Made by a program: the position numbers and the translations under genes
IMG/VR virus record: IMGVR_UViG_3300036852_000068
Coordinates: 1 to 54,848 of that record
DNA length: 54,848 nt
Direction: 5' to 3' (one strand)
Origin: a virus
The notes under the pieces: model-generated
Seen by the model: only the letters and a program-made list of their open reading frames with translations
Database searches by the model: none
Told to the model about the DNA's origin: nothing
Part shown: positions 4,958 to 53,845 of the stretch, in pieces
Position numbering within the stretch: the stretch's first letter is position 1
How the letters are laid out: every line of letters starts with the position of its first letter

Positions 4958-4986
4958 TTGACTCCTGTTCTTATTGAGAGTAAACT
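4958..4986 (+). promoter_or_regulatory. Promoter for the first HNH gene
   Basis: TTGACT at 4958-4963, a 17-bp spacer, then TAAACT at 4981-4986. A GGGAG ribosome binding site at 5012-5016 precedes the HNH start at 5023. The promoter lies at the left edge of the inserted segment, so the endonuclease appears to carry its own expression signal. Confidence 0.6.
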
Positions 4987-5022
4987 AGTAGCAGAAACCC
5001 AGCATTTAATCGGGAGCCTGCT

Positions 5023-5586: not shown

Positions 5587-5918
5587 AACTCGCCCCGCAC
5601 ACGAGCCGATTGTGTTAGCTCGTAAGCCTCTTATCGGAACCGTCGCAGAGAACGTCTTACAGCACGGAACGGGCGGGTTGAATGTTGATGGATGCAGGAT
5701 CGAAACCGTTGACGTGTATTCGTATCCAAACGGCCCCGGCGGTAAATCACACCACTACAGCAGTGACAAACGCAGCGTTGAAGTTCGCCCTAATCCCGCC
5801 GAGAGCAATCCGTTAGGCCGCTGGCCCGCAAACGTGATTCTGTCCTATCCCGAAGATGAATACGAACTTTGCGCAAGTGTGACCGCAGAGCAAAAGAAAG
5901 AACTGTTTCAGTGGCTTT

Positions 5919-6548: not shown

Positions 6549-6805
6549 CCATCTGAAAGCCCTGTTTCGGAAGCTGCCGAACCATGGATCGGATGAAGTG
6601 CTGGCGGGGTTTCCTGAGACAGGGATAAGTGCAGGCGGCGGCATGAAAGACTTACAAAAGGGCAAGTTGTTTCAGGGCGAAACTAATCCCAATATCACCA
6701 ACACGTCGGGATTTGGCGATTTCGGTTCTGCAGCCCGTTTCTTCTTTTGCGCGAAAGCCTCTCAAGAAGAACGCAATGCAGGACTCAGTGGCGGCGTTCA
6801 ATTGC

Positions 6806-6834
6806 TTGACTGTGCTGCGCTAGTTTGCTACCCT
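6806..6834 (+). promoter_or_regulatory. Promoter for the third HNH gene
   Basis: TTGACT at 6806-6811, a 17-bp spacer, and an extended -10 TGCTACCCT ending at 6834. The HNH ATG follows 8 bases later, so the transcript should be essentially leaderless. The layout matches the promoter of the first HNH gene at 4958-4986. Confidence 0.55.
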
Positions 6835-6842
6835 TCCCGATC

Positions 6843-7283
6843 ATGGGTATTCGCGGCCCTCAATCAAAGGCTCCTGGAGGATACGGTAGCATTAGCAAAA
6901 AAGGCTACCGCCGAATCTATGATCCAAACGAGCGAAGGTTTCGTATGGAGCATGTGCTTGTGTGGGAGTCCTACAACGGACATATTCCACCCGGCTATCA
7001 AATCCATCATCGAAACGGAAACAAAATTGATAACGAAATTGGAAACTTGGAACTCCTCAGCCCAACCGCACACAAACGGCTGCATGGCGGCTGCGTTTGG
7101 CGTGACGGCCAATGGCGGAAACCTTGCAAGCTATGCGGAATTTCAAAGCCCATTAATGCGTCAAACTGGTATCTCAGCAAAGAAGGATGGCCGCTATATG
7201 GTCGATGCCGACCTTGCCACGTCAATAAAGTCGTGGCTGACAAGCGCGCCCGTAGGAGGCGGGCAAAGGATGGGAGTGCGTAA
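6843..7283 (+). CDS. HNH homing endonuclease nested in the methyltransferase (third)
   Basis: 146 residues from the ATG at 6843, preferred over a TTG at 6825 because the protein then opens with MGIRGPQSKAPGGYGSI, the usual start of this HNH group. Core: MEHVLVWESYNGHIPPG, IHHRNGNKIDN and NLELLSPTAHKRLH, with the HH pair and Asn of the active site. The C-terminus has a CKLCG ... CRPCH zinc ribbon. It lies wholly inside the middle methyltransferase frame and has its own promoter. Confidence 0.87.
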   Translation: MGIRGPQSKAPGGYGSISKKGYRRIYDPNERRFRMEHVLVWESYNGHIPPGYQIHHRNGNKIDNEIGNLELLSPTAHKRLHGGCVWRDGQWRKPCKLCGISKPINASNWYLSKEGWPLYGRCRPCHVNKVVADKRARRRRAKDGSA

Positions 7284-7299
7284 TTCCCATCCTACGTGA

Positions 7300-7569
7300 A
7301 CAGTCAAGCCTCTAGCCTTAATGCAATACCTAATCAAACTCATTACTCTACCAAACGGAATAGTGCTCGACCCGTTTGCCGGATCAGGCAGCACGCTTAT
7401 AGCAGCAAAGCAGTTAGGGTATAAAGCTATTGGGATTGAGAAAGAGGAAGAATATTGCGCTATCGCCCAGCATCGGCTGCTAAATCTTCCTGAGCCACTA
7501 ACCTACGATGAGCCGATTAAGCCTGCTAAGCCAGCGCGGATAGTTGAGCAACCGGAGTCGCTATTTTGA
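7300..7569 (+). pseudogene. DNA methyltransferase, C-terminal segment with the SAM motif
   Basis: The frame resumes directly after the stop at 7297-7299 with TVKPLALMQYLIKLITLPNG, then DPFAGSGST, the SAM-binding motif, and GIEKEEEYCAIAQHRL. It is in the same frame as the middle segment. An ATG at 7321 exists but has no ribosome binding site. Alone it cannot be catalytic. It is the missing C-terminus of the gene starting at 4412. Confidence 0.75.
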
Positions 7570-37177: not shown

Positions 37178-37206
37178 TTGACAAGCGTATCGTCTAGGCG
37201 TATCGT
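37178..37206 (+). promoter_or_regulatory. Strong rightward early promoter
   Basis: Perfect TTGACA at 37178-37183, a 17-bp spacer and TATCGT at 37201-37206. The ATG at 37216 follows 9 bases later, so transcripts would be leaderless or nearly so. It drives the rightward small-gene cluster. It lies inside the TerS upstream region on the opposite strand. Confidence 0.65.
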
Positions 37207-37215
37207 GTTCACGCA

Positions 37216-37452
37216 ATGACGAACACCAACCAAGCCGAACGATGCTTTGCCTGTGGGAAAAAGTTGCGACGGAGTATTAGTCAAGCCGTACGGCCTGAGG
37301 CGATAACCAGCGACTTAGCGCAAATTGTTCGCGTCGGTTCAGACTGCTGGAAGCTTATTGCTCGCAGTGGTGACGCAGGTTATCAGCCGCCACGCGGAGG
37401 CCCGCGCTTATTAGTGCTGACGGCTGAGCGCGAAAGGATATTCAATCAGTGA
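37216..37452 (+). CDS. Small zinc-binding early protein
   Basis: 78 residues, begins MTNTNQAERCFACGKKLRRS with a CxxC knuckle, then VGSDCWKLIARSGDAGYQPP and a C-terminal strand. It is the first gene after a strong promoter and lacks a ribosome binding site, as expected for a leaderless start. Function unknown. Confidence 0.65.
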   Translation: MTNTNQAERCFACGKKLRRSISQAVRPEAITSDLAQIVRVGSDCWKLIARSGDAGYQPPRGGPRLLVLTAERERIFNQ

Positions 37453-37622
37453 CTACTACACAACAACTAGCAAAGGAACTACGCATTAGCCAGCGGGCGA
37501 TTCAGAACCGCATCCTGCGACTGGGATTGAAAGTGCAGAAAGCTGGAAATGCGTTTGTGCTGACAGCGACACAGGCGCAGGCGGTGAGGGATTACAACAA
37601 CAGCAAGAAGGAGAATCGGTAA
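37449..37622 (+). CDS. Small helix-turn-helix-like protein
   Basis: 57 residues from a GTG that overlaps the previous stop (GTGA). TTQQLAKELRISQRAIQNRI is a compact helix-turn-helix, followed by RLGLKVQKAG and a basic tail. It may act as a small transcription or excision-type regulator for the early cluster. Confidence 0.65.
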   Translation: MTTTQQLAKELRISQRAIQNRILRLGLKVQKAGNAFVLTATQAQAVRDYNNSKKENR

Positions 37623-37838
37623 ATGCTTAGTCCGAAAACACTAGAGCGGGTTTCAGTTTCTTATCGCCGCGGTTATTACGATGGTTATGACGGAAAAGCT
37701 GTTGACAATCCTGCGCGCGATCCGTTTGACCGACCATTTGCAAACTTCGATTACGATCAAGGCTACAAGGCAGGTGCAAGCGATAAGAAATGGTATCTCA
37801 AGCGTCAGCAGGACAACACACCGGCAACAGGAGAGTGA
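37623..37838 (+). CDS. Small early protein with aromatic repeats
   Basis: 71 residues, start directly after the previous stop, with AGAAGGAG in front. It has YRRGYYDGYDGK and DYDQGYKAGA segments, a Tyr/Gly pattern seen in small phage proteins of unknown function. Confidence 0.65.
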   Translation: MLSPKTLERVSVSYRRGYYDGYDGKAVDNPARDPFDRPFANFDYDQGYKAGASDKKWYLKRQQDNTPATGE

Positions 37839-37839
37839 A

Positions 37840-38052
37840 ATGACAATAGATCAACTGCCACAACTAGAGCGGGTGTTTTACTTGAAAAACTACGAAAACG
37901 GTCGATTCATTCGTGAAGCATTCTCGCGCATGACGCAAGCCGAGCGCGATGAAGTTGACAGCGTTTTAGTTGAAGTTGGCCACCCATTGGCATTTGAGCC
38001 GGGGACACAAGAATCTCGGATCGTCGCATTGGTTAAGGAGTTTGGGCGGTAG
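37840..38052 (+). CDS. Small helical early protein, duplicate pair copy 1
   Basis: 70 residues from the ATG at 37840 (MTIDQLPQLERVFYLKNYEN). Highly similar to 38381-38620: the shared core includes ENGRF, SRMTQAERDE, VLVEVxHPLA and GTQESRI. The similarity marks a recent tandem duplication around the gene at 38142. Function unknown. Confidence 0.7.
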   Translation: MTIDQLPQLERVFYLKNYENGRFIREAFSRMTQAERDEVDSVLVEVGHPLAFEPGTQESRIVALVKEFGR

Positions 38053-38074
38053 CAAGCAATCGACGGAGCAATCA

Positions 38075-38122
38075 TCTTGGTAAGCAGGCGGCAAATTCTG
38101 AGATTGCCGCCACGTGCCAAGA
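38075..38122 (+). other. Nested hairpin in the leader of the next gene
   Basis: Inner perfect 8-bp stem GGCGGCAA (38087-38094) / TTGCCGCC (38104-38111) with a 9-base loop, and an outer 6-bp stem TCTTGG (38075-38080) / CCAAGA (38117-38122). No T-run follows. It lies 20 bases before the start of the zinc protein at 38142 and could control its translation. Confidence 0.5.
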
Positions 38123-38141
38123 GCACGAGAAGGCTTAAACA

Positions 38142-38339
38142 ATGACAACCAAATGCCCACAATGCGGAAGGCGCTGTCACCCTAAATCATTTCGCGGCAG
38201 CAAGCCATATCTCTACGATAAGGTTAAGCCATCGGAGGTAGAGCAAAGGGCAAGCGACAAGATAGGTGTTCCGATTGAGCGATACGAGATTCACAAATGC
38301 AATCGGAAGAACAGCAAGGCAGGCAGCCTCACACTCTGA
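38142..38339 (+). CDS. Small zinc-binding early protein
   Basis: 65 residues. CPQCGRRCHPKSFRG forms a zinc knuckle and a later HKC may add a ligand. The remainder is basic. It lies between the two members of a duplicated gene pair. Function unknown. Confidence 0.6.
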   Translation: MTTKCPQCGRRCHPKSFRGSKPYLYDKVKPSEVEQRASDKIGVPIERYEIHKCNRKNSKAGSLTL

Positions 38340-38380
38340 GGTTGCTACGTACCTAAGCACAAACTAAAGGAGATATGACG

Positions 38381-38620
38381 ATGACGATAGATCAGCTACC
38401 ACAATTAAGGCGCGTATTCTACCTTACACGCTATGAAAATGGACGTTTCCTCCGTGAAGCGCCATCACGTATGACACAAGCCGAACGCGACGAGATTGAT
38501 CGCGTGCTGGTCGAGGTTGCGCATCCGCTCGCGTGGGAAGCCGGAACACAAGAATCGCGAATCATTGCAATAGTGAAGGAGTTTGGCGCATCGGGGCTGT
38601 CAGACGTAAGGGCTGACTGA
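38381..38620 (+). CDS. Small helical early protein, duplicate pair copy 2
   Basis: 79 residues from the ATG at 38381, chosen because AAAGGAG is 8 bases upstream and the paralogue at 37840 starts at the same residue. About four-fifths of the first 68 positions match copy 1. The C-terminus adds ASGLSDVRAD. Function unknown. Confidence 0.7.
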   Translation: MTIDQLPQLRRVFYLTRYENGRFLREAPSRMTQAERDEIDRVLVEVAHPLAWEAGTQESRIIAIVKEFGASGLSDVRAD

Positions 38621-38733
38621 TTTCAGGGGACGCGGGGTAGCCTGAATAAGCAACGACAAAAAGCCCGCACAGTTTCACCGCGACCGCTGGGGCGCTATCC
38701 TTAACACGGTAAATGAGAAAGGAAAAACACGAA

Positions 38734-38889
38734 ATGACTGGAGCTAAGAACTACGCGCAAGAGCCGTCATCCTATTGCGACATCGACGGCTATCCGTTAA
38801 GCGATGATGGTTCGTGTGACCGTTGCGAGAGAAGCGCGGCGGCTGAGCAAGCGGAAGATGACGCTGACGACATGGAGTACGAAGCATGA
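38734..38889 (+). CDS. Small acidic CxxC protein
   Basis: 51 residues with YCDIDGYPLSDDGSCDRCE, a probable metal site, and an acidic tail (EDDADDMEYEA). AGAAAGGAAAA upstream acts as the ribosome binding site. Stop overlaps the next start by ATGA. Confidence 0.6.
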   Translation: MTGAKNYAQEPSSYCDIDGYPLSDDGSCDRCERSAAAEQAEDDADDMEYEA

Positions 38890-39026
38890 GCCTGATTAGA
38901 TTTCCACTTAAGTTACCGCCTGTTCGCCGCAGATGTGAGCCATGGCTGGCAGTCATCGCCAGAGGGCTTGCCCTTATACTAGCTCTGGGACTGATTCTGG
39001 TAGCAATAGCCCCATGGGAAGGGTAG
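38886..39026 (+). CDS. Small single-pass membrane protein
   Basis: 46 residues with a hydrophobic C-terminal half (LAVIARGLALILALGLILVA). ATGA overlap with the previous gene. A basic N-terminus suggests the N-in orientation. Function unknown. Confidence 0.55.
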   Translation: MSLIRFPLKLPPVRRRCEPWLAVIARGLALILALGLILVAIAPWEG

Positions 39027-39094
39027 AACGGCGCACAAGGCGATTCTGACGCAGGAAGCGCTATCACAGACTGGGTTGAGAGGCGGATTGAAAT

Positions 39095-39517
39095 ATGAAA
39101 CGCAGGCAAGTGTGGCGGTACAGTTGTGAGTTTTGCAAAAAGTCGAATTGTTCGGGTTCGGCCATCGCTAAGCATGAAGAACGGTGTACGCTCAACCCAA
39201 ATCGCGTGTGTGGCGTGTGCAAAATGCTTGAGCAGCCACAATCCGATCTTCCGGCTATCATTGCTTTGCTGCCTAAACCTATCCTTTACCGAGAGAGTGA
39301 CAACGGCGACACGTTGACGTGGCCGGAAGGCTTTGATGTAAGCACAGCATTCGGAACGGCTCGCGTGAAAGCTCGTAACTGTCCAGCGTGTTTGCTCGCT
39401 GCAATCCGTCAAGCAAAGATTCCAGTACCGTTGTTTTCATCAGACTTCAATTACACTGAAGAATGCAAAGCAGTCTGGGCAAAAATCAACGAGGAGGATC
39501 AAACACCGTGGCTATAA
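39095..39517 (+). CDS. Zinc-finger early protein
   Basis: 140 residues. SCEFCKKSNCSG ... HEERCTLNP and VCGVCKMLE give several zinc ligands, resembling tandem small fingers; a further CPAC occurs near 95. The final GAGGAGGAT is the ribosome binding site of the next gene. Likely binds nucleic acid or a host protein. Confidence 0.65.
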   Translation: MKRRQVWRYSCEFCKKSNCSGSAIAKHEERCTLNPNRVCGVCKMLEQPQSDLPAIIALLPKPILYRESDNGDTLTWPEGFDVSTAFGTARVKARNCPACLLAAIRQAKIPVPLFSSDFNYTEECKAVWAKINEEDQTPWL

Positions 39518-39762
39518 CCAAACTCCACCTGATTGACGGCGATGAACCAACCCGTGAGATGGTTGCTATAGCGAAAATCGAGCAGAATCAATCCGAGTGG
39601 GCCGGGCCGTGCGGTAAGACAGATGGGTGGAAGCCAATTGAGACAGCCGCCGACAGCCCGCTTCCCGTCGATGAGGTGCAGCGTAAATCGTACAAGGTGA
39701 TTGTGATTGATAGTCCAATACCGCTGTGGCGACGGATACTACGATGGAGGAAAACGAGATGA
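39508..39762 (+). CDS. Hypothetical early protein
   Basis: 84 residues from the GTG at 39508, with GAGGAGGAT upstream. Contains GPCGKTDGWKPIETAADSP and a hydrophobic C-terminal (YKVIVIDSPIPLWRRI). It overlaps the gene before it by 10 bases and the next by ATGA. No family. Confidence 0.6.
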   Translation: MAITKLHLIDGDEPTREMVAIAKIEQNQSEWAGPCGKTDGWKPIETAADSPLPVDEVQRKSYKVIVIDSPIPLWRRILRWRKTR

Positions 39763-40151
39763 GCAGACATAGTGAACGAAAGCAGTTAAGGCGCAAGTCG
39801 CGCAGGCGGATTGCGGATAAAACCAGTGACGCGATTATGGCGATCTACGAACGCGCTAAGCAAGGCGGCTCCGAGGATTATTTAGCGATCAATCAACCCA
39901 GCGAGCCGGAGCGGGTTGCGAAGATTCAGGCTGAGGCTCAAGAGCGGCGGGATAGACGGCCCCAGAAGTCACGGCAGTTTGTTCCTACCCATCGGGCGGT
40001 TGCTACGCCTAAAAACGCGCCACGCGGCAATTACAAGCGATTGGCAAGCGGTCAAGTAGTCGGCCACCCTGAACCAATGCGGACAGTTAAAGAGCGAGCA
40101 CGTCAGTCGCGGTTACGGCGAAGGGCCGCGTTCAGGAAAGCGAAAGCATGA
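39759..40151 (+). CDS. Basic hypothetical early protein
   Basis: 130 residues from the ATG at 39759 (ATGA overlap). Very Arg/Lys/Gln rich with a C-terminal arginine cluster (SRLRRRAAFRKAKA). Possibly nucleic-acid binding. No motif. Confidence 0.6.
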   Translation: MSRHSERKQLRRKSRRRIADKTSDAIMAIYERAKQGGSEDYLAINQPSEPERVAKIQAEAQERRDRRPQKSRQFVPTHRAVATPKNAPRGNYKRLASGQVVGHPEPMRTVKERARQSRLRRRAAFRKAKA

Positions 40152-40288
40152 ACAACTCAATGAGAAAATGGAATAAGGTACTAAACACACGAAACCCGCC
40201 AACCAGCCCGCCACTAATCCGCTGCCTCGCACTTTTCCTGCTGTCCATAGCTCCCACCAGCATCAAGCACGGCAATCGGTCACATTGA
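40148..40288 (+). CDS. Small membrane-like peptide
   Basis: 46 residues, ATGA overlap with the previous gene. A hydrophobic stretch (LIRCLALFLLSIAP) near residues 24-37. Ends at the edge of the promoter-operator region at 40292. May be a small membrane protein; low confidence in function. Confidence 0.45.
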   Translation: MNNSMRKWNKVLNTRNPPTSPPLIRCLALFLLSIAPTSIKHGNRSH

Positions 40289-40291
40289 CAC

Positions 40292-40320
40292 TGGACTCAG
40301 CAAGCGGCTTGCTGTAGGAT
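40292..40320 (+). promoter_or_regulatory. Promoter with a perfect palindromic spacer
   Basis: TGGACT (40292-40297), the 17-bp perfect palindrome CAGCAAGCGGCTTGCTG (40298-40314, one central G) and TAGGAT (40315-40320). The palindrome fills the spacer exactly, so a bound regulator would compete with polymerase. The ATG of the next gene follows 7 bases later. Confidence 0.55.
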
Positions 40321-40327
40321 TCTGGAC

Positions 40328-40552
40328 ATGGCAAACACAAAGACACAGCTTGAGTCCACGATGATTCGCCGCACGATGCATTCTTTGGTTTCTGGCTGCG
40401 TTGACTCGGATACGCGCGAAGTCAATCGTACTCAGCTTGCGGAGAACACCGCGCACGCTCTTAACCATGATGAGTGGTTGGACGACTCAGATCATATCCT
40501 CTGGGACTTTGCCATTGACGTGGCCGAAGCCTACGAACGGAGGGCCGCATGA
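40328..40552 (+). CDS. Small early protein
   Basis: 74 residues, leaderless context. Contains MIRRTMHSLVSGCVDSDTREV, NRTQLAENTAHALNHDEW and DFAIDVAEAYER, mostly helical. Stop overlaps the next start by ATGA. No family. Confidence 0.6.
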   Translation: MANTKTQLESTMIRRTMHSLVSGCVDSDTREVNRTQLAENTAHALNHDEWLDDSDHILWDFAIDVAEAYERRAA

Positions 40553-40791
40553 GCGAGATTGACGCCGCCATTCTCCAATGGCGCAAGGTTGCACAACAGG
40601 AGCGTGAACGGGTGGCTCTGGGATTGACCTACGGATGCGACCACGTGGCCCTCCACAATGCCGAGCTCTACGAAGATACGGCCCGATCCTTAGAGATTGA
40701 ACGTGATACTGGCGTCGCTGTTTGCAACTCCTGCTTCAAGCCCCTTAACGCAACGCGAGATCGACGTGGTTATCATTCCTGCGTAGGCTAA
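40549..40791 (+). CDS. Small early protein with CxxC
   Basis: 80 residues, N-terminal helix (IDAAILQWRKVAQQERERVA), C-terminal zinc knuckle (VCNSCFKPLNATRD ... HSCVG). ATGA-coupled. Function unknown. Confidence 0.6.
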   Translation: MSEIDAAILQWRKVAQQERERVALGLTYGCDHVALHNAELYEDTARSLEIERDTGVAVCNSCFKPLNATRDRRGYHSCVG

Positions 40792-40851
40792 GAATATGGC
40801 AACCAAAACTACCGTTATACTGGGGAATTCAACACGGAAGGCGAGAACATT

Positions 40852-41052
40852 ATGACAAACCAAACAGAACAACCTTTACGCTTCCAAGTCTTTTTTAGCG
40901 GCAGGCCGGGAACGGAACCAGAGCGTTATTTATGTTCTGAGTGGGCAACCCGCGACGCCGCCGAGGGGTGGATTGAATCAGCGGAACACTTTGGCGGAAC
41001 ATTCGAACTGATTGACACTGGCTCTGTGCTTGCAAGGAGAGAAGATGATTGA
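40852..41052 (+). CDS. Small early protein
   Basis: 66 residues, beta-alpha-beta-like (RFQVFFSGRPGTEPERYL; EWATRDAAEGWIESAEHFGG), with CGGAAGGCGAG upstream. It overlaps the following start by 8 bases. No family. Confidence 0.55.
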   Translation: MTNQTEQPLRFQVFFSGRPGTEPERYLCSEWATRDAAEGWIESAEHFGGTFELIDTGSVLARREDD

Positions 41053-41362
41053 CGTATTGACACCACTACCAAACGGGCGAATTGCTCTGCAATCCGATCC
41101 TGACGATTCAGATTTCTACGCGAATCGCGCGGTCGAGAACTTCATTACAGGCGGCCCGCGTTTCCGTAAAGGAATGGTAGTTGAGCGAACAGCTTTAGCT
41201 CGCGGCACGTTGCGGGCGATGGGAATGTCTGAATTAGCCTCGCAGCGCGGTGTTTATACCGGCAAGGCGACGGGCAAATTCAAGGGCTGCATTCTCATTC
41301 GGATTAGAGGTTCACGTAAGGCTGAACCATTCGCGCCTGAACTTTGGCAGCCAATTCGCTAA
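41045..41362 (+). CDS. Hypothetical early protein
   Basis: 105 residues from the ATG at 41045, with AAGGAG upstream. Contains RGTLRAMGMSELASQRG and TGKATGKFKGCILIRIRGSRK. Small, basic, beta-rich; resembles an SH3-like domain. Overlaps the previous gene. Function unknown. Confidence 0.6.
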   Translation: MIDVLTPLPNGRIALQSDPDDSDFYANRAVENFITGGPRFRKGMVVERTALARGTLRAMGMSELASQRGVYTGKATGKFKGCILIRIRGSRKAEPFAPELWQPIR

Positions 41363-41385
41363 CTTAGAAAAGCAATAGTTGATTA

Positions 41386-41775
41386 ATGACAACTAGACTG
41401 ATACAGCCCGACTATCAGCCAGAGGACTTCAAGGCGCATCCGATTTGTCCGTCCTGTCGGCACACTGGGCCAGTGAGAGACGGGAAGTGTCGCTATGTAA
41501 TCGACAATCAAGGCGGGGAGTGTGGTTGCCCTTGTTACGTTCACAGTGAGACTCCGGTTTATCACCAACTACTGGATGAACTAGAAGCGGAAAAGGAAGA
41601 AGCGCTGCGACTTGTAAAAGCAATCTCTTCTGCACGGGACGAACTTGCTATTGAACTCGATACCAAAAACGCTTTGCTGCAAATAGCAAATCAGGAAATC
41701 CAGCGATTAAACCGTGAACTCTGCGAAAGGGAGAGAGAGAACGAGTCCATGTATCAGCCGCTACGACGCGATTGA
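41386..41775 (+). CDS. Zinc-ribbon plus coiled-coil protein
   Basis: 129 residues: an N-terminal zinc ribbon (CPSCRHTGPVRDGKC ... CGCPC) and a C-terminal coiled coil (YHQLLDELEAEKEEALRLV onward to LCERERENES). A two-part design of binding and oligomerisation. No family. Confidence 0.6.
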   Translation: MTTRLIQPDYQPEDFKAHPICPSCRHTGPVRDGKCRYVIDNQGGECGCPCYVHSETPVYHQLLDELEAEKEEALRLVKAISSARDELAIELDTKNALLQIANQEIQRLNRELCERERENESMYQPLRRD

Positions 41776-41822
41776 GGCGTGGAACCTTCAGGTTGAGGAT
41801 CATAACCGGGAAAGGAGCCGCG

Positions 41823-42065
41823 ATGAAACAATGTGAAGGCTGTGGCCAGCAAACGCTTACTGAGCTGGCATGGTTAATCGAGGGCGATAGTTGTTATTGG
41901 GACGGCCGTTACACAGATAGTCGCGGCTTCACGCGCGACGTAAACGACGCGGTTCGATTTGTCCGCCACCAAGACGCTGACGTGGTGAAACATTGGCTAA
42001 TGCAGGGTTGTGCGTTTGCACTGAGAACCACACAACACGGTTGGAGCAACGGGGAACCAACATGA
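41823..42065 (+). CDS. Small Cys/Trp protein
   Basis: 80 residues from the ATG at 41823, with AAAGGAGCC upstream. N-terminal CEGCGQQ knuckle and acidic/aromatic core (DSCYWDGRYTDSRG, DAVRFVRHQDAD). It overlaps the next start by ATGA. Confidence 0.6.
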   Translation: MKQCEGCGQQTLTELAWLIEGDSCYWDGRYTDSRGFTRDVNDAVRFVRHQDADVVKHWLMQGCAFALRTTQHGWSNGEPT

Positions 42066-42307
42066 TGAAACCCGAAGGTGCTATGTACTGCCCGCGATGC
42101 GAAGGAACCGGGGTAATTCCAGATCCGCGATTCCACGGCGCAGAGGCTCGCAAGCGCAGGCTCAAAACTGGCATTCCATTGCGGGAAATGGCGCGACGTA
42201 TGAGTTTGAGCGCTGCCTATCTTTCCGATTTGGAACTAGGGCGGCGTGGCTGGCGGGAGGAACTGCAGCATCGGTATGTCAAAGCACTGAGACAAAGCCA
42301 TGATTAA
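42062..42307 (+). CDS. XRE-type HTH regulator with N-terminal zinc knuckle
   Basis: 81 residues from the double ATG at 42062. The N-terminus has YCPRCEGTGVIPD, then an XRE-like HTH: LREMARRMSLSAAYLSDLELG. Probably a DNA-binding regulator of the early cluster. The zinc knuckle may add a protein contact. Confidence 0.65.
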   Translation: MMKPEGAMYCPRCEGTGVIPDPRFHGAEARKRRLKTGIPLREMARRMSLSAAYLSDLELGRRGWREELQHRYVKALRQSHD

Positions 42308-42337
42308 AAAACACGCGGACACGAAGAGCATTCAAAC

Positions 42338-43021
42338 ATGAAATACGAACTAACGGACACAGAGGCGGTTTTGCTGGACGGGCAAGTTAGCGACGCTGCT
42401 CAGGGCCTCGTAAGCGCAGCGAAGGCGCGGATCGCGGCGGCATCGGCCTATCCTGAATTGACGGAACGAGAAGCGGGATTCATTGCTGATGTAGTTACGG
42501 AAGCTCACAAGGAGCTACTACTCGCGCATCGCAGTGAATATGTTCAACGCTGCCCGGTTTGTGAGAAGGACGCGGGTTATCACATTCGCACTCGCACTTC
42601 ACGCAACGGGCGCAGAGGCCAACCCGACAGGTCAAAGCCCAAGCTCTTTCGTGCGTTTGAATTTCACGAGAGCTTCATCACTATCAAGAACCGTGTTTAC
42701 CTCGGCTGCTGTAGTGACTGTTTTGCTCGCGTAAAACCTTATCTAGCTGAAGCCCTAAAAGACGTTAAAGCACAAATTCCTTCGTGCATCACCGGACACA
42801 AACCGACGTATCTCAGAAGCAAAAAGATGCACTGCAAAAAGTGCGAATGGATCGGACTGGAAAGCGAGATGGGCAGGTTGTCATCAATAATAGGGAACGG
42901 CTGGTATCCGGGCAAATGTCCGCAATGCGGTGCAGAGAATCAACTATTCACTACAAACATTGAGACGGTCGTTCCGATTGAATACGCGGTCGTGGTTAAT
43001 AAAGAAGGGCGCGATTACTGA
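42338..43021 (+). CDS. Cys-rich hypothetical protein
   Basis: 227 residues. Helical N-terminal, then several CxxC knuckles (CPVCEKDAGYH, CCSDC, HCKKCEWIG, CPQCGAENQ), probably two or three zinc ribbons. It may bind nucleic acid or a host complex. No family recognised. Confidence 0.6.
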   Translation: MKYELTDTEAVLLDGQVSDAAQGLVSAAKARIAAASAYPELTEREAGFIADVVTEAHKELLLAHRSEYVQRCPVCEKDAGYHIRTRTSRNGRRGQPDRSKPKLFRAFEFHESFITIKNRVYLGCCSDCFARVKPYLAEALKDVKAQIPSCITGHKPTYLRSKKMHCKKCEWIGLESEMGRLSSIIGNGWYPGKCPQCGAENQLFTTNIETVVPIEYAVVVNKEGRDY

Positions 43022-43055
43022 GTGTGATTGGGACGAATGTGTGGCAATTAAAGCG

Positions 43056-43304
43056 ATGAATCCTAAAACCATCCGCAAAGTCATGGCCGAACTCGGCCGC
43101 CGGGGCGGTTCTAAAACCTCAACCGCCAAAAAGAAAGCCGCAGCCAAGAGTCTCAAGAAAGCCCGCGCAGTCCGCTGGCCACAACATCACGCCCACACTC
43201 GGCATCTGTGCAGGCGGTGTCTAGGTGAGGTGACGGATGTAGATAGGAAGGCTGGAGAATGCACCCAGTGTGGCTTTGAAATCAGGAAAACAAAACTTGT
43301 ATAG
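43056..43304 (+). CDS. Lys/Arg-rich zinc protein
   Basis: 82 residues from the ATG at 43056. Opens MNPKTIRKVMAELGRRGGSK then a Lys/Ala-rich helix and a C-terminal ribbon (CRRCLGEVTDVDRKAGECTQCG). A basic DNA-binding-like start with a zinc tail is frequent in phage early proteins. Confidence 0.6.
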   Translation: MNPKTIRKVMAELGRRGGSKTSTAKKKAAAKSLKKARAVRWPQHHAHTRHLCRRCLGEVTDVDRKAGECTQCGFEIRKTKLV

Positions 43305-43533
43305 ACCCTATTCAACGCGTAACTGTTGTATATAAAAGTTTTAAACGCAATTCGACCCCTCAAACTCGATTTCGTGCCATAGCCTTAACCGATGTAACCT
43401 ATAGAGCGCGTTACTACTTAACCCTTGTGTTTGATTTGCGGACAGTGCCAATCTCGATGCTGTTTCGAGGCTGTTTAACACTTTCCGGCTAAATACTTGA
43501 CATGTAAACCGTTAAGGTGTTACTGTGTTTGAC
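43305..43533 (+). other. Intergenic region with promoter and iterated TTAAC motifs
   Basis: No gene. Contains an AT-rich run (43327-43351) and several TTAACC/TTAACA copies (43385-43390, 43418-43423, 43475-43480, reverse 43512-43517), plus the promoter of the RHH gene at the right end. This is a possible origin or regulator-binding region near the helicase gene. Confidence 0.35.
43497..43526 (+). promoter_or_regulatory. Promoter of the RHH gene, with TTGACATG direct repeats
   Basis: TTGACA 43497-43502, 18-bp spacer, TACTGT 43521-43526; ATG at 43534 follows 7 bases later. An 8-bp direct repeat TTGACATG occurs at 43497-43504 and again at 43529-43536, overlapping the start codon. RHH proteins often bind such repeats and autoregulate. 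Confidence 0.45.
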
Positions 43534-43689
43534 ATGGAAAACAAATCAGTAAAAACTCAAATCAGCCTGCGTTTGACTGAGGAAGGCCAGCGTTTACTTG
43601 CACTGCTGGCTGAGAGTCGCGGGATAAGTAAAGCAGCTATGATGGAAATACTCATCCGCGACGCTGCGCAAAACGAGGGAGTAGATTAA
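43534..43689 (+). CDS. Ribbon-helix-helix regulator
   Basis: 51 residues. The short strand QISLRLTEEG followed by QRLLALLAESRGISKAAMME is a typical RHH (CopG/Arc-like) dimer. Stop is two bases before the next start. It probably represses or balances the promoter at 43497 and may control replication of the circular genome. Confidence 0.8.
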   Translation: MENKSVKTQISLRLTEEGQRLLALLAESRGISKAAMMEILIRDAAQNEGVD

Positions 43690-43690
43690 G

Positions 43691-43951
43691 ATGATCTACT
43701 TTATTCGAGTTGCGGGAGCCGCCTTTACAAAAATCGGACGCGCCGTGGATGTAAAGAGCCGATTGTCTAATTTGCAAAATGCACATTATCAGCAACTAGA
43801 ATTACTGGTCACCGTCGAATCGCAGGTTTACCCGCGTTGCTTAGGCAAATTAAACAGCGACCTTGAAATCGGTCGAATTGACCGCTTGAAGGTGGTATTG
43901 CGAGGCGCTTTTAACCGAGTCAGGGATAACAAAATGGCCGCGATCTTCTAG
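43691..43951 (+). CDS. GIY-YIG-like (T5orf172) protein, truncated
   Basis: 86 residues as drawn. YFIRVAGAAFTKIGRAVDVKSRLSNLQNAHYQQLELLVTVE is the N-terminal half of T5orf172/GIY-YIG domains (strand, KIG, dv..R...lq, strand). The last 35 residues lie antisense to the helicase gene and read as its shadow, and the usual C-terminal catalytic glutamate region is missing. Probably a decayed or shortened domain. Confidence 0.6.
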   Translation: MIYFIRVAGAAFTKIGRAVDVKSRLSNLQNAHYQQLELLVTVESQVYPRCLGKLNSDLEIGRIDRLKVVLRGAFNRVRDNKMAAIF

Positions 43952-44908
43952 TCGATAAAGGCCAGCAAGCGCCCAATTAAAGATAGCTTGACCGGATGAT
44001 TTCACTTGTTCTTTGATAGCGAGGTTTCGTTCGGATTCTGGCAATTCTGCAAACTCGATTACCTTAATGCGACGACTAAGACCAGTGGCGGATTTCGAGA
44101 TGACCGGAAACTCGTTCATCGCCCAAAGGATTTTGACGTGCGGGACAACTTCGTAGGGGTCTTTGTATTTGCGATTCACTACCAAGCGTTCGCCTGAGAT
44201 AAGCTGGATGATTACGTGTCCGGCGCGCATCTGTTCAGGCTGCTCGGTAGATACGGCCAATGTTTTACCGGGAAGGTTAGTAAGGCCAAAGCTGGAATTT
44301 TCAATATCACTGATGCCGAGAACCATTGCACGCGAGCCTAACGCGGATTGTAACCCTTCGATGAATGTGCTCTTGCCGCATCCGGGCGGCCCATATAACC
44401 ATAAAGCGATTTCGTGATGCGTGTCCGTTGTTAAAGCTAGCCCCGCAAATTCCTGCACGAAATCATAAACGTCCGACTTGAACACTCGCCGCAAATACAT
44501 TTCCCAAACATCGGAACGAGCGTAAGGGTCATACTTGAATGGAAACGCGCTGGTTAGATAGTGAGACGGATCGTGCTTTAACTGCTCACGCGTGGAAATC
44601 TTTAAAGTGCAATCAGCAAAGGTTACATAATCCGTTTCACGGTCAAACAAACCATCTTCTTTAGATACCTTGATGCGAATCAATTCAGCGACGCTTTTCA
44701 GTGTAGTAGACGACGCTGAGAGTTTCAGACTACGCTCTTTGTCAATAAGGTCTTGGATGCTCTGCATGATTTTATCTTCACGCCAGATTTCCCAGACGCG
44801 ACCGTTAAACCGCAACCATGACCCTGAACTGTAAGCAGTCTGCGGATAGAGACGGCAATACTTATCACGGATGAAAGTCTGAGGCTGATCACGGGTGGCT
44901 CGTGGCAT
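43850..44908 (-). CDS. SF3 (D5/P4-like) replicative helicase
   Basis: 352 residues. An N-terminal D5-N-like part (GSWLRFNGRVWEIW; TDYVTFADCTLKI) and an SF3 ATPase with GPPGCGKS (173-180), a Walker B-like NLPGKTLAVSTEQPE, and motif C with NEF (KILWAMNEFP). It unwinds the phage origin. No primase domain is present, so priming must come from host or another phage protein. The 3' end overlaps the truncated gene in the opposite direction by 102 bases. Confidence 0.88.
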   Translation of the reverse strand: MPRATRDQPQTFIRDKYCRLYPQTAYSSGSWLRFNGRVWEIWREDKIMQSIQDLIDKERSLKLSASSTTLKSVAELIRIKVSKEDGLFDRETDYVTFADCTLKISTREQLKHDPSHYLTSAFPFKYDPYARSDVWEMYLRRVFKSDVYDFVQEFAGLALTTDTHHEIALWLYGPPGCGKSTFIEGLQSALGSRAMVLGISDIENSSFGLTNLPGKTLAVSTEQPEQMRAGHVIIQLISGERLVVNRKYKDPYEVVPHVKILWAMNEFPVISKSATGLSRRIKVIEFAELPESERNLAIKEQVKSSGQAIFNWALAGLYRLEDRGHFVIPDSVKSASQYHLQAVNSTDFKVAV

Positions 44909-44917
44909 TTGTCTCGG

Positions 44918-45118
44918 TCAGTACGAGATTCGAGAGTTGTTAAGTATGTCGCAAAGCGCAAGTAGCGCGTGAACTTGTGCTGTTTTTAGTAAAAGCCTAA
45001 CGCGCTCAACATCATTAAGAGCAGGTGTCAGGGCTTCCGTCGAATCTTCTGCTTCGGCTAATAAGTGCTTGGCAGAAGAGAGGTGATCCCAACTAAGCAA
45101 CGGCTTTTCGTTTTCCAT
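44918..45118 (-). CDS. Small helical protein between repressor and helicase
   Basis: 66 residues from the ATG at 45118, no clear ribosome binding site. Almost wholly helical (LSSAKHLLAEAEDSTEALT; RVRLLLKTAQVHALLALCDIL). It overlaps the repressor end by 26 bases. Function unknown, possibly a replication accessory. Confidence 0.55.
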   Translation of the reverse strand: MENEKPLLSWDHLSSAKHLLAEAEDSTEALTPALNDVERVRLLLKTAQVHALLALCDILNNSRISY

Positions 45119-45332
45119 TAGTTTCAGCACGAGTCAGGTCAGAAATGCGGACACCATACAGGACGCATAACCGAGCCACAACATCGCCATTAGCACGGCA
45201 CTGGTCGTTCTCAATCTGGAAAAGGTGTTGACGGCTGATGCCTACGGCCTTAGCTGCGTGCGCCATTGCCATCTTGCCGCGCGCCTTCTTTAGCTTGGGG
45301 CCGCTGATTTCAATATTCACCGTTGCGCTCAT
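45093..45332 (-). CDS. XRE-family HTH repressor
   Basis: 79 residues from the ATG at 45332, 8 bases after a -10 box, thus leaderless. The HTH is KLKKARGKMAMAHAAKAVGI then SRQHLFQIENDQCRANGDVV and LCVLYGVRISDLTRAE, an XRE fold. It faces the rightward early unit across a 148-bp control region with inverted repeats and is the most likely lysis-lysogeny or early-gene repressor. It lacks a C-terminal peptidase domain, so it would not be a LexA-type switch. Confidence 0.82.
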   Translation of the reverse strand: MSATVNIEISGPKLKKARGKMAMAHAAKAVGISRQHLFQIENDQCRANGDVVARLCVLYGVRISDLTRAETNGKRKAVA

Positions 45333-45340
45333 GTTCGTAG

Positions 45341-45369
45341 ATAATATAGTCAAGTACCGCCTGCGTCAA
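45341..45369 (-). promoter_or_regulatory. Leftward promoter of the repressor
   Basis: Minus strand TTGACG (45369-45364), 17-bp spacer, TATTAT (45346-45341), ATG 8 bases later. CTTGAC occurs twice within it (minus strand, 45370-45365 and 45354-45349), probably repressor half-sites. Confidence 0.6.
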
Positions 45370-45374
45370 GCCTC

Positions 45375-45418
45375 ATTTTACAAGCGAATTTGCTAAGGAA
45401 ATTAACGAATTGTAAAAT
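45375..45418. promoter_or_regulatory. 9-bp inverted repeat in the divergent control region
   Basis: ATTTTACAA at 45375-45383 and its exact complement TTGTAAAAT at 45410-45418, 26 bases apart, centred between the two promoters. Suits a dimeric or looped operator, or an AT-rich melting site. Confidence 0.45.
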
Positions 45419-45429
45419 AATCTAAATTT

Positions 45430-45450
45430 CTGTCAATTAGGGCTTGACAG
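45430..45450. promoter_or_regulatory. Palindromic operator over the rightward -35
   Basis: CTGTCAA (45430-45436) and TTGACAG (45444-45450), a perfect 7-bp inverted repeat with a 7-base spacer. The right half contains the -35 hexamer, so occupancy should block the rightward promoter. Confidence 0.55.
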
Positions 45451-45473
45451 CCTAATAATCCCTTTGCTAGTAT
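45444..45473 (+). promoter_or_regulatory. Rightward early promoter
   Basis: TTGACA 45444-45449, 18-bp spacer, TAGTAT 45468-45473, ATG at 45481 seven bases later. Leaderless layout. It transcribes the right-hand small-gene cluster and the recombination module. Confidence 0.6.
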
Positions 45474-45480
45474 CGCGGGC

Positions 45481-45750
45481 ATGGAGCAGCACCAAACACA
45501 AATCGTAGTTAAAGGGGTCAGCGACGAAGTTCTTGAGTGCCAGAAGTGCGGCAAGCCCGAACTCAAGCGGACTATCGTGTTGAGTGATGGCGAATCAGAA
45601 CTCTATTACGGTTCACAATGCGCGGCTCGCGCGCTAGGAATGCGTAAACGCTCGGTGGATCGCATAGCGGAACAGAGAGCGCAAGGGCGAACGGTTCGCA
45701 ATTTTTCTAAACCGATTTTTCGCGGCGGAAGGTTTCTCGGCTATGCCTAG
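45481..45750 (+). CDS. Zinc-ribbon early protein
   Basis: 89 residues. VLECQKCGKPELKRTIVLSD with a downstream YYGSQCAARALGM and a basic tail (KRSVDRIAEQRAQGR). Together a small zinc ribbon with a possible DNA-binding tail. First gene of the right cluster; overlaps the next by 8 bases. Confidence 0.65.
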   Translation: MEQHQTQIVVKGVSDEVLECQKCGKPELKRTIVLSDGESELYYGSQCAARALGMRKRSVDRIAEQRAQGRTVRNFSKPIFRGGRFLGYA

Positions 45751-50704: not shown

Positions 50705-51285
50705 GCACGAAGCAGACGCGGCACGCTTTCATACCTTTCGTTTGCGACAACTGCAACACGTCAGACGTGCTCGAAACGTGGAAACGAATGACGCATCTCG
50801 CGCAGCAAAACAAATATGACTTAGCGGCCAAAATTATCAAGTTAGAATCGGACTTAATGCGATACGTAGCAGTTGAACAATCAGCCGCCGCACCCGCACC
50901 GCCTCAGACGGATTCACGAACTAAGGCGTTCGCTAAGTTCCGAAACAGTGTGGGTTTCCAATTTGGATTCTTTCGGTTTTCAGGACTGTCAGAAGAGAAG
51001 GCCATCGACCATATTTGCAACGCAGCACAAAGACTCGTTAACGAACTGACCGCACCCGCACCGCTTACTATTGAGCAGGCTTTAGTGGAGTTGAGAGAGA
51101 TGTTTCCTGACTGTTGGATTCGCATTGATCGGTCGCTTCGATACCAGCCGGAAGTGAATGCAGAACCGTACTCCTTGGTTACTATTTCGATAGACAAATT
51201 CGTGGATGACTTTGAATGCGCAACCCTCGACCTCGCCATGAATCAAGTTAGGCAGCGGGTAAAGGAGAAACAGAACGATGGGTAA
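50701..51285 (+). CDS. Modular early protein with zinc knuckle and PAPPQTDS linker
   Basis: 194 residues, ATGA overlap with the previous gene. N-terminal knuckle (VCDNCNTSDVLETW), a coiled region, the linker APAPPQTDSRTK, and a C-terminal alpha/beta part (SGLSEEKAIDHICNAA; MFPDCWIRIDRSLRY). Probably assembled from shared parts. Confidence 0.6.
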   Translation: MSTKQTRHAFIPFVCDNCNTSDVLETWKRMTHLAQQNKYDLAAKIIKLESDLMRYVAVEQSAAAPAPPQTDSRTKAFAKFRNSVGFQFGFFRFSGLSEEKAIDHICNAAQRLVNELTAPAPLTIEQALVELREMFPDCWIRIDRSLRYQPEVNAEPYSLVTISIDKFVDDFECATLDLAMNQVRQRVKEKQNDG

Positions 51286-51412
51286 TGCTGTGTGTGGTCG
51301 CCGATACCGAATCTGGCTTGGAGAGAAATGGAGTGGTACGCGCCACTGTACGAAGCGCCGTGGTCATAAAAGTAAATGCGGCAAACATAAGGAGAAAGCC
51401 AATGGCAACTAA
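51278..51412 (+). CDS. Small basic Cys/His peptide
   Basis: 44 residues with RRYRIWLGEKWSGTRHCTK and HKSKCGKHKEK, basic, possible zinc ligands. AAAGGAGAAAC upstream. Overlaps both neighbours. Confidence 0.5.
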   Translation: MGNAVCGRRYRIWLGEKWSGTRHCTKRRGHKSKCGKHKEKANGN

Positions 51413-51890
51413 CTCACCCGTACCACCATATGACACGCACTCTACTGATTCAGGACGCATCTACGCCGACGATGATGCTATGGCCGAAAGGGAACTGGCG
51501 CGAATCAGGGCACGTAAGAACTCACCCGCACCAGAGCGAATCTGGCTGCAACGAGGGCAAGCGAAAGACCCCGATGAGTGTACCTTGTCTCACGTAAGCA
51601 CCGACGGCAACGGCGAGGTTGAATATGTTCGCGCCGATCTCGCTGCTACTCCCGCTGGCGAGGTTGTGACTTGCATGGAGGATGTTCGACGCCTTGAGTT
51701 GCGACGCGACGCGCTATGTGAGAAGGCGTCAATACTTGATTGTATTAACCAAGAGCTGCGAGAAAACGAGGCAGGATTTCAAGCGACGACAGACGATGAC
51801 CCGCGAGCAGCAATCCGCTTGTTAGTCGATGCTGTCCGCACAAAAGAACGCCGTCAGGTTGCTGTCTCAGCCCTTCAGGTGGCTAAGTGA
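51402..51890 (+). CDS. Hypothetical early protein
   Basis: 162 residues from the ATG at 51402, with AAGGAGAAAG upstream. Pro-rich linkers (TNSPVPPYDTHS, ARKNSPAPERIW) join a strand-rich module (DPDECTLSHVSTDGNGEVEY) and a C-terminal coiled coil (MEDVRRLELRRDALCEKASI). No family. Confidence 0.6.
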   Translation: MATNSPVPPYDTHSTDSGRIYADDDAMAERELARIRARKNSPAPERIWLQRGQAKDPDECTLSHVSTDGNGEVEYVRADLAATPAGEVVTCMEDVRRLELRRDALCEKASILDCINQELRENEAGFQATTDDDPRAAIRLLVDAVRTKERRQVAVSALQVAK

Positions 51891-51937
51891 ACGAATCATC
51901 ACCGCGCTGGAAGGACTGAAGAAAGAATAATTTAGAA

Positions 51938-52138
51938 ATGAGAATTATCTTATTGTTAATCGCTTGCTTATTAATGGGGGGTTGTTACTACGACGACTCT
52001 CCTGTTTTAAGTCAAAATCCAATAGGAACAGGCCGGATGCGTGTTCATGTCCCAAGACCCGTTCCGAAACCTATTCCAACTCCACGCGCACCCTTTCGAT
52101 GCTTCAAGCAACCCAATGGGCGTCTAATTTGCGAATAA
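51938..52138 (+). CDS. Small lipoprotein (RCFKQP family, copy 2)
   Basis: 66 residues. Signal peptide with a lipobox (LLLIACLLMGGC), then a Pro/Arg linker (PRPVPKPIPTPRAPF) and the tail RCFKQPNGRLICE. The tail matches that of the secreted protein at 13209-13388. Membrane-anchored in the periplasm or on the surface; could be an exclusion or host-interaction protein. Confidence 0.7.
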   Translation: MRIILLLIACLLMGGCYYDDSPVLSQNPIGTGRMRVHVPRPVPKPIPTPRAPFRCFKQPNGRLICE

Positions 52139-52155
52139 AGGGAGAATTCGAAAAG

Positions 52156-52413
52156 ATGATTAACTACGAACCATATAGCCCGCAGACTTGTCAGTTCCAT
52201 TGTACTGGTAGCGCTTTACCGGTTGACGGCGAAAAGGACGCTGTTGACGGTCTGCGATTATTATACGCTACTGAATGGCGACCTTGTTTCGCCTGCATCG
52301 TCGGCTTCAACCCCGACCTTACCTGCAAGCCGTGGGACGTGGAGAGAGCAGTGCCGCTGATGTCAGTTCTGGTGGGCCAAATCGGTCAACATGACACTTC
52401 CAATTTGTTTTGA
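52156..52413 (+). CDS. Small Cys-containing early protein
   Basis: 85 residues from the ATG at 52156, with AGGGAG upstream. Contains PYSPQTCQFHCTGSALP, WRPCFACIVGFNPDLTC. Five or more Cys suggest a metal site. Function unknown. Confidence 0.6.
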   Translation: MINYEPYSPQTCQFHCTGSALPVDGEKDAVDGLRLLYATEWRPCFACIVGFNPDLTCKPWDVERAVPLMSVLVGQIGQHDTSNLF

Positions 52414-52437
52414 GTAGGTGTAGATTGCGCAGACGCT

Positions 52438-52737
52438 ATGGAACCAGACACTGTACAACCAACCACCCCACGCGTCAGCGAAGGCGGCATATTCCTTTGT
52501 CGCCGCTGCGGGAAAGATGTTGAAGGTTACGATCTCTGTGTCCCTATATGTACCGACGCCAAGCACGTAGCCTTACGCGGCTCACTGAGGTTGCTCTACA
52601 CCAGTGGGACGGGTGAGGCGAGTTGTCAGCAGCAATGCGCATGCGGTGGTTTGCATCCGTGCTTTCTACGACTTGATCATAGCTTAGTAATCGACCATCG
52701 GTTTACATCGGAATGTTTGAATGGAAAGCCCAAGTAA
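52438..52737 (+). CDS. Zinc-ribbon early protein
   Basis: 99 residues: FLCRRCGKDVEGYDLCVPIC, then CQQQCACGGLHPCF and a C-terminal DHRFTSEC. Two clear zinc ribbons. Overlaps the nuclease start by 17 bases. Confidence 0.65.
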   Translation: MEPDTVQPTTPRVSEGGIFLCRRCGKDVEGYDLCVPICTDAKHVALRGSLRLLYTSGTGEASCQQQCACGGLHPCFLRLDHSLVIDHRFTSECLNGKPK

Positions 52738-53845
52738 ACAAATGAGCCAATGCGTCTTACATCCTGACGAGGTTGCTACTTCTGATGCTCAAGGCATTCC
52801 AGTTTGCTCTGGCTGCTGGCATCAATACAACGATGAACGCCGCATGTCCGATGGGCAATCCCAACGTAGACCATTTCTAGAACGATTGATCAAGGTGAAT
52901 GCTGAGCGCACAACTAAGCGGCAAAGTTATTCAAATAGTCAGCTTCAGTCGATGAAAAACTGTCCTTTACAATTCCATTTCTACTGGGACTTGGCATTGC
53001 GACGCATAGACGATGAGGGATCGGATCATCATCTTCGTTATGGAAGCGCCTTTCATCAGGGGTTAGCTGTTCTATACCAAGGCGGTTCTTTGAATGAATC
53101 CCAGTGGGCGTTTCGTAATGCTTACCCAACCCAACTAGACCTAAACGACAAAGCTAAGACTCAGGAACACGGTGTCATCGCTCTGGCTGCCTATGCCCGC
53201 CGCTGGGCCGAGGAAGATCGTAAATGGAAAGTCATCGTAGTTGAAACCCGCTCCGACGATCCGTGGTCAGTAAAGCCGGATTTGATTATTGAGAACCTTG
53301 ATCATGGTGGCGTCTATCTAGTTGATCACAAGACGACGGGGAAGTATTTGAATTATGACTATTGGGCGCAATTTGAACCTAATTCACAAATAACCCACTA
53401 CCTTGATTATGCTCAATCAAAGTACGGTGAAATCGAAGGCTTCATTATCAATGCGATTGGTTTCCGCTTTCGTGAGCGAGCCTACAAAGGCGAACCGGCT
53501 GGCTTCTGGTCGAACTTTGAACGACAAACATTTAACCGTCGCCCTGAGCAACTAGAGCACGAACGGCGCAATCGCGCATGGTGGATCGAAACTATTGAAT
53601 CATGCCGTCGTAACGGCTTCTGGCCTACAAATACGTCATCCTGCAAGTTCTGCCAATACAAAGCTATCTGTGCGCCGGGGTGGTCATGGGAAAACGACCG
53701 CGAGTTGATTGAGATTCAATACCGACAAGTATGCGACGCGCTACTCACTTACGATGAGCGATGCGTATTAGACCGAAACCACGAAGGCGAGCATGCGCCC
53801 GTCCTTCCAATCGAGCAGCTAATGGAGATTTCCGTAGAATGCTAA
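52721..53845 (+). CDS. PD-(D/E)XK nuclease, Cas4/RecB-like
   Basis: 374 residues (start at 52721 or 52742). A Cys-containing N-terminal segment (QCVLHPDE, CSGCWHQY) precedes the nuclease fold: C81 near QSMKNCPLQFHFY, H112 in GSAFHQGLA, D187 in KPDLII, and D202/K204 in LVDHKTTGK, followed by a C-terminal cluster CKFCQYKAIC that may hold an iron-sulfur centre as in Cas4. It would resect DNA ends for recombination by the downstream ATPase. Confidence 0.85.
   Translation: MESPSKQMSQCVLHPDEVATSDAQGIPVCSGCWHQYNDERRMSDGQSQRRPFLERLIKVNAERTTKRQSYSNSQLQSMKNCPLQFHFYWDLALRRIDDEGSDHHLRYGSAFHQGLAVLYQGGSLNESQWAFRNAYPTQLDLNDKAKTQEHGVIALAAYARRWAEEDRKWKVIVVETRSDDPWSVKPDLIIENLDHGGVYLVDHKTTGKYLNYDYWAQFEPNSQITHYLDYAQSKYGEIEGFIINAIGFRFRERAYKGEPAGFWSNFERQTFNRRPEQLEHERRNRAWWIETIESCRRNGFWPTNTSSCKFCQYKAICAPGWSWENDRELIEIQYRQVCDALLTYDERCVLDRNHEGEHAPVLPIEQLMEISVEC

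Follow-up and report, generated by a model that had tools for sequence, protein, structure and literature searches.

Probable leaderless promoters of small DNA-binding regulator genes in a group of uncultivated soil phages

In this work we analyzed the 54,848-base record IMGVR_UViG_3300036852_000068 of an uncultivated soil phage (the whole stretch is referred to below as the window) for promoters located immediately before start codons. Six promoters are present in which the -10 box ends 7–9 nt before an ATG, and in none of the six would a Shine-Dalgarno (SD) site be transcribed; the initial annotation had described the same six, five of them together with that of an HNH endonuclease gene, as having no ribosome binding site. 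Similar promoters were found in 16 related uncultivated phage contigs (G001–G016), picked via their primase and capsid relatives. Very probably these are genuine sigma-70-type promoters which, with the -10 box 6–10 nt before the ATG, give leaderless mRNAs, mainly of small DNA-binding regulators.

Placement of the promoters relative to start codons

The strict pattern used here was TTGAC-N16..18-TANNNT with an ATG at 6–9 nt. Five such sites were found in the window versus 0.24 in dinucleotide shuffles (maximum 2 among 300 shuffles), and the 16 related contigs contained 53 matches versus 7 with a reversed control pattern. Thus, the -10-to-ATG spacing is conserved among the relatives, a comparison that the initial annotation had itself suggested as a check. 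A generic scan for sigma-70 sites in the region gave 16 of them versus 15.5 in shuffles; hence significance attaches to the placement relative to the ATG rather than to promoter-like sites as such.

For a pooled distance test, promoter sites followed by an open reading frame (ORF) of at least 30 aa were collected from the window and the 16 contigs. In total, 61 sites had -10-to-ATG gaps of 6–10 nt (6, 16, 17, 17, and 5 sites, respectively), versus a shuffle mean of 1.2. Outside this peak we found one site at 0–5 nt, a few at 11–22 nt and a shallow, wide cluster around 30 nt. The sites at 27–40 nt were mixed: 11 of 24 had an SD site, and the others were secondary ATGs behind a leaderless start. 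With a looser -35 box the peak persisted at 5–9 nt (79 sites versus 13–34 in the other five-base bins). Any SD-like word is absent from 57 of the 61 sites, and the other four have AGGA solely within the -10 box. Clustering at 50% identity groups the proteins behind the 61 sites into 43 families; the spacer length is 17 in 35 of these families and the free sixth base of the -35 hexamer is A in 27. Up to seven leaderless sites were found per phage record.

It could be argued that these are promoter look-alikes lying close to ATGs by chance, in line with a generic scan no higher than shuffles. However, the window-shuffle, reversed-pattern and pooled distance tests, which are position-specific, refute a chance origin, and we consider it practically negligible. 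Leaderless transcripts from host-type (sigma-70-like) promoters, as suggested in the initial annotation, would best account for the spacing peak and the lack of SD sites.

The strict pattern was also applied to 15 reference phages (lambda, P22, HK97, N15, P2, and Mu; the mycobacteriophages Bxb1, Giles, Che8, and TM4; phiC31; TP901-1, A2, and phi11; and Thermus P23-45). It gave 4 matches versus 5 with the control, in a comparison that covers one promoter type only, as the pattern misses promoters with poor -35 boxes such as PRM. The strict pattern is therefore not a common phage feature.

An in-frame stop codon is located at most 45 nt upstream of the ATG in 52 of the 61 sites, which makes a longer protein unlikely. 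Codons 2–7 of the leaderless ORFs are richer in A than those of SD-led ORFs (0.43 versus 0.33, p 1.6e-6) and in AC dinucleotides (p 0.0006), and this difference vanishes further downstream. For CA dinucleotides themselves, no significant enrichment was seen in these first codons (p 0.12). Since CA repeats past the start codon were reported to enhance leaderless translation (PMC9031893), it is plausible that A/AC-rich first codons replace the SD site.

The following scheme can be proposed. The host RNA polymerase with its main sigma factor would read these promoters, and the transcript would begin at the A of the AUG or a few nucleotides ahead of it. Ribosomes would then bind the 5'-terminal AUG without SD pairing, by the general mechanism described for leaderless mRNAs (PMC9031893), possibly aided by the A/AC-rich first codons; a host tolerant of leaderless mRNA would be expected. 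Of the two readings offered in the initial annotation, a host that translates such mRNA well and a phage trick, either may apply. Most other genes would be SD-led and lie downstream, inside operons. The latter agrees in large part with the initial annotation, in which later genes were said to have normal SD sites: in the right half of the window an SD match of at least 4 bases, 3–12 nt upstream, was found at 26 of 39 positions (4 of the 39 coordinates being off by some bases and not exact starts). Near 42074 the window encodes a homolog of genes that are leaderless in G012 and G014; this gene lies within an operon and has no such promoter, so leaderlessness accompanies the promoter-proximal place. 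Some other homologs that escaped the strict pattern are preceded, at about the same distance, by a weaker promoter.

Functions of the genes behind the promoters

A Pfam scan of 42 of the 43 leaderless families revealed HTH_17 in 8, HTH_3 in 6, RHH_1 in 3 and a MazE/AbrB-type domain in 1 family, as well as 2 HNH nucleases. As a control we used 82 SD-led small ORFs (36–150 aa) of the same phages, in which helix-turn-helix (HTH)-type matches were restricted to two families with one member each, both on the window ORF 37449–37622. DNA-binding regulators thus make up about 18 of the 42 leaderless families versus about 1 of the 82 SD-led ORFs (Fisher p 2.6e-9). The same bias was obtained in a PHROGs scan, and no regulator was found among nine first genes behind leadered promoters; a tenth protein of that set is the nested HNH. 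The phage group may therefore be said to apply the leaderless mode, as we propose, mostly to small DNA-binding regulators, often in divergent pairs.

These data do not support, in its original form, the view that early units as a rule begin with a leaderless gene. In the related phages, leadered first genes with the same kind of promoter exist, some of them directly facing a leaderless gene, and function as a small DNA-binding regulator correlates with leaderlessness more strongly than first-gene position does. Early timing of these genes may be supposed, as in the initial annotation.

Alternatively, the pattern may reflect host habit only: the host would make many leaderless genes and the phage promoters would follow, with no special role of regulators. 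Such an explanation has, in our estimate, a little under an even chance. Leaderless genes are frequent in some phyla (PMC3160421), and leaderless non-regulators also occur in these phages (one HNH gene, an exonuclease, and others). However, it does not account for the strong regulator bias or for divergent pairs in which one side only is leaderless; besides, the mycobacteriophages and the Thermus phage of the reference set, whose hosts are rich in leaderless genes, gave a total of two strict matches, although the pattern may miss theirs. A host from a leaderless-rich group would account for leaderless mRNA being tolerated, yet would not alone explain why regulators are favoured.

Several points weigh against leaderless promoters of regulator genes as we propose them. 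The relatives share ancestry; kinship inflates the signal but does not create it, given that the 61 sites still fall into 43 families. The strict pattern favours strong -35 boxes, and its counts are no share of all leaderless genes. The count of 18 regulator families presumes that Pfam families mark different proteins, and the SD-led control set may include some false ORFs. Finally, 5 of the 61 sites have an SD-led start 24–57 nt downstream that may be the main start, with the 5' AUG as an extra initiator. Extended to all sites, this would turn the 5' AUG into an upstream initiator or decoy and place the start of the actual product further downstream on that short leader, at a codon with an SD site; 5'-terminal AUGs preceding SD sites are known in E. 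coli (PMC4965119). But 56 of the 61 sites lack such a downstream start, and in several families the homologs are conserved from their first residues. We regard the decoy explanation as improbable.

A broader hypothesis is that this clade of soil phages follows a leaderless rule for regulator or switch genes, with A/AC-rich codons replacing the SD site and regulator translation thereby taking a route separable from that of SD-led genes, and that mobile HNH elements carry leaderless promoters of their own. We put it forward tentatively and think it rather unlikely to hold in full.

It should be mentioned that many of the relatives have, after leaderless promoters, genes of tiny Zn-ribbon proteins (34–50 aa) of the form KCKRCKYEW...CPKCxSxxW (G003 42825, G005 14745, G007 19118, G008 17134, G010 38643, G012 31299, G013 43476, and G016 27396).

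Promoters of the window and their surroundings

The promoter TTGACA-17-TATCGT at 37178–37206 (plus strand) ends 9 nt before the ATG at 37216 and precedes a predicted leaderless ORF of 78 aa (37216–37452), a Cys-containing protein for which no family was found. The promoter TGGACT-17-TAGGAT at 40292–40320 (plus strand) is located 7 nt before the ATG at 40328; the ORF behind it (40328–40552, plus strand, 74 aa) likewise yielded no family and has AC-rich first codons. With TGGACT as its -35 box, this promoter is the weakest of the six by consensus. Its SD-like letters are limited to AGGA within the -10 box and would therefore not be transcribed. It gains support from G002, G004, and G005, where this promoter recurs with TTGACT as the -35 box and shares the palindromic or nearly palindromic spacer.

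The spacer in the window is the palindrome CAGCAAGCGGCTTGCTG (40298–40314). A palindromic or near-palindromic element, CAGYAAGCGGCTTRSTG, forms the spacer between the -35 and -10 boxes there as well as in G002 (33391 and 33930), G004 (54733) and G005 (51127, minus strand). It precedes different genes in these four phages and is likely a shared operator. Operators within spacers were rejected as a general rule: a strong spacer palindrome was found in merely 6 of the 61 promoters (mean score 2.75 versus 2.0 in shuffled spacers).

The promoter TTGACA-18-TACTGT at 43497–43526 (plus strand) lies 7 nt before the ATG at 43534, and the GTG start given for this gene in the ORF list, at 43525, falls within its -10 box. 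The putative leaderless product (43534–43689, plus strand, 51 aa) has a weak ribbon-helix-helix (RHH; CopG-like) match to PF01402 with an E value of 0.003, which is under the curated cut-off. In a search for relatives of the short first-gene proteins none were found.

The remaining two promoters of the right-hand part are divergent. On the minus strand, TTGACG (45369–45364)-17-TATTAT (45346–45341) is located 8 nt before the ATG at 45332 of a Cro/CI-type HTH regulator gene (45093–45332, 79 aa). Its relative in G008 (40% identity) is also predicted to be leaderless, with a gap of 9 versus 8 nt. On the plus strand, TTGACA-18-TAGTAT at 45444–45473 lies 7 nt before the ATG at 45481, where the first gene of the right-hand operon begins (45481–45750, 89 aa, Cys-containing, no family found). 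In total, 16 divergent promoter pairs were revealed in the window and its relatives. Nine of them, including 45332/45481, are leaderless on both sides; in the other seven the gene on one side, in most cases HTH or RHH judging from its sequence, is leaderless and faces a leadered one, which is the layout of lambda cI and cro.

Two inverted repeats are present between the divergent promoters of the window (45365–45382/45431–45448 and 45375–45383/45410–45418), and autoregulation may be supposed for such genes. A second promoter-like site directed toward the HTH gene, TTGACA-16-TACAAT (45409–45436, minus strand), is located 64–77 nt upstream of the first one; its leader would be about 70 nt long, with no SD site. 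The arrangement recalls a repressor gene with two promoters. The second site could also be taken to favour transcripts that begin further upstream in general, the ATGs being translated without SD sites from long leaders. Such leaders would leave unexplained both the sharp peak at 6–10 nt and its absence in the reference phages, and we consider them improbable, slightly more so than the decoy AUGs.

The putatively leaderless HTH gene, divergent to the 45481 promoter, matches a cI-like layout. Yet it is not classed here as a lysogeny repressor, because a tyrosine integrase (PF00589) was found only in one relative, G015, and not in the window or 15 of the 16 relatives, in records that may be incomplete and in a search that did not include serine integrases.

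The sixth promoter, TTGACT-17-TACCCT at 6806–6834 (plus strand), lies 8 nt before the ATG at 6843 of a putative leaderless HNH endonuclease ORF of 146 aa (6843–7283), for which HNH families were found in the group scans. In the methylase gene of G006, about 35 residues lie between CAKASQEDRNEGL and HPTVKP. The matching methylase segments of the window are separated by about 500 bases (about 6787–7287) that contain the promoter and the HNH ORF, the latter in a frame different from that of the interrupted methylase. The insertion therefore includes the promoter, which probably moves together with the HNH element and is not an early-unit promoter as had been supposed.

The DNA methylase gene as a whole (4412–7569) appears to be interrupted by three HNH-type insertions. 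One contains a hidden out-of-frame HNH ORF (5023–5586) located between duplicated HEPI(I/V)xARKP motifs; a promoter-like site lies at 4958, and the ATG of this ORF is preceded by GGAG. Another HNH ORF (5919–6548) is common to the window and G006 (77% identity), and the third is the putative leaderless one at 6843–7283.

Among the genes of the window are those for terminase, major capsid, tape measure, primase, exonuclease, a Sak4-like protein, beta clamp and methylase. In a DNA search for near matches the window had none among known phages. A protein search with the terminase gave no match, and the sole matches of the capsid were weak mycobacterial prophage ones with 26% identity. The methylase and primase matches are scattered across many hosts, and for this reason no host was inferred. 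A host or prophage search of species genomes revealed no relative via capsid alignment or the G015 integrase. No translation factors were found among the window proteins scanned, which are part of the protein set. The beta clamp homolog (DNA polymerase III; PF00712, E 1.8e-14) is encoded at 2576–3670, and diverged copies with 22–31% identity are present in G001–G006, G008, and G012. In G010 the terminase large subunit gene (50983–53232) matches as two blocks about 780 bases apart, which suggests an inserted intron, intein or homing element.

Comparison with known leaderless systems

The leaderless regulators known from phages are mostly isolated examples, e.g., lambda cI, whose mRNA is leaderless (PMC8630535). 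The principle is thus known, although this way of initiating translation is uncommon, and the density of the sites together with the regulator bias is the new part. What we describe appears, from the sequences compared, to be a known mode of initiation applied unusually often, across a whole phage group and preferentially to regulators. With up to seven sites per record, this phage group lends itself to a comparative study of why regulators are leaderless. Moreover, the starts of small phage genes are easily mis-called where an SD site is expected.

Bacterial leaderless genes are marked by a TANNNT box that precedes the start codon by about 12 nt (PMC3160421). With gaps of 7–9 nt, the first T of the -10 box in the window is located 13–15 nt before the ATG, which fits this TA-led class, and all six sites lack an SD site outside the -10 box. 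The share of leaderless genes is about 39% in Deinococcus-Thermus, 19% in Actinobacteria, 16% in delta-proteobacteria and 13% in Acidobacteria (PMC3160421). As such genes are concentrated in few phyla, the leaderless habit may help to guess the host. In Deinococcus, -10 boxes adjoining ORFs drive leaderless expression (PMC12340547). The TA-led genes of Deinococcus-Thermus, Actinobacteria and other groups resemble those described here in the position of TANNNT and the lack of an SD site (PMC3160421; PMC12340547). However, they represent a genome-wide cellular habit, with a weak need for a -35 box in Deinococcus, whereas here the genes belong to phages, have near-consensus -35 boxes and are biased toward regulators.

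Among phage-derived systems, lambda cI with PRM and PaaR2 from a cryptic prophage in E. coli O157:H7 share with this group a small or HTH regulator, leaderlessness, a -10 box 6 nt before the ATG (TAGATT in lambda PRM, before the cI ATG) and a divergent promoter. Unlike this group, lambda has one such gene, while here up to seven sites per phage precede HTH, RHH, AbrB-like and Zn-ribbon genes, with consensus -35 boxes that distinguish them from the PRM system. In the mycobacteriophage Cluster O (Corndog), the promoters PL1, PR2, and PL2 are divergent predicted SigA promoters with +1 at the first base of the start codon, and one of them precedes the gene of a putative DNA-binding protein (PMC4351075). 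Those phages are different, however, and no DNA similarity or close protein similarity of the window to cultured phages was found. In their layout, the insertions in the methylase gene can be likened to the ShiLan-type elements of mycobacteriophage methylases, which also contain hidden HNH ORFs in another frame within the methylase gene and whose mode of translation is an open question (PMC11855218). The difference is that here one HNH ORF has a leaderless promoter of its own, as predicted from its position, and another has a promoter-like site and the SD-like GGAG.

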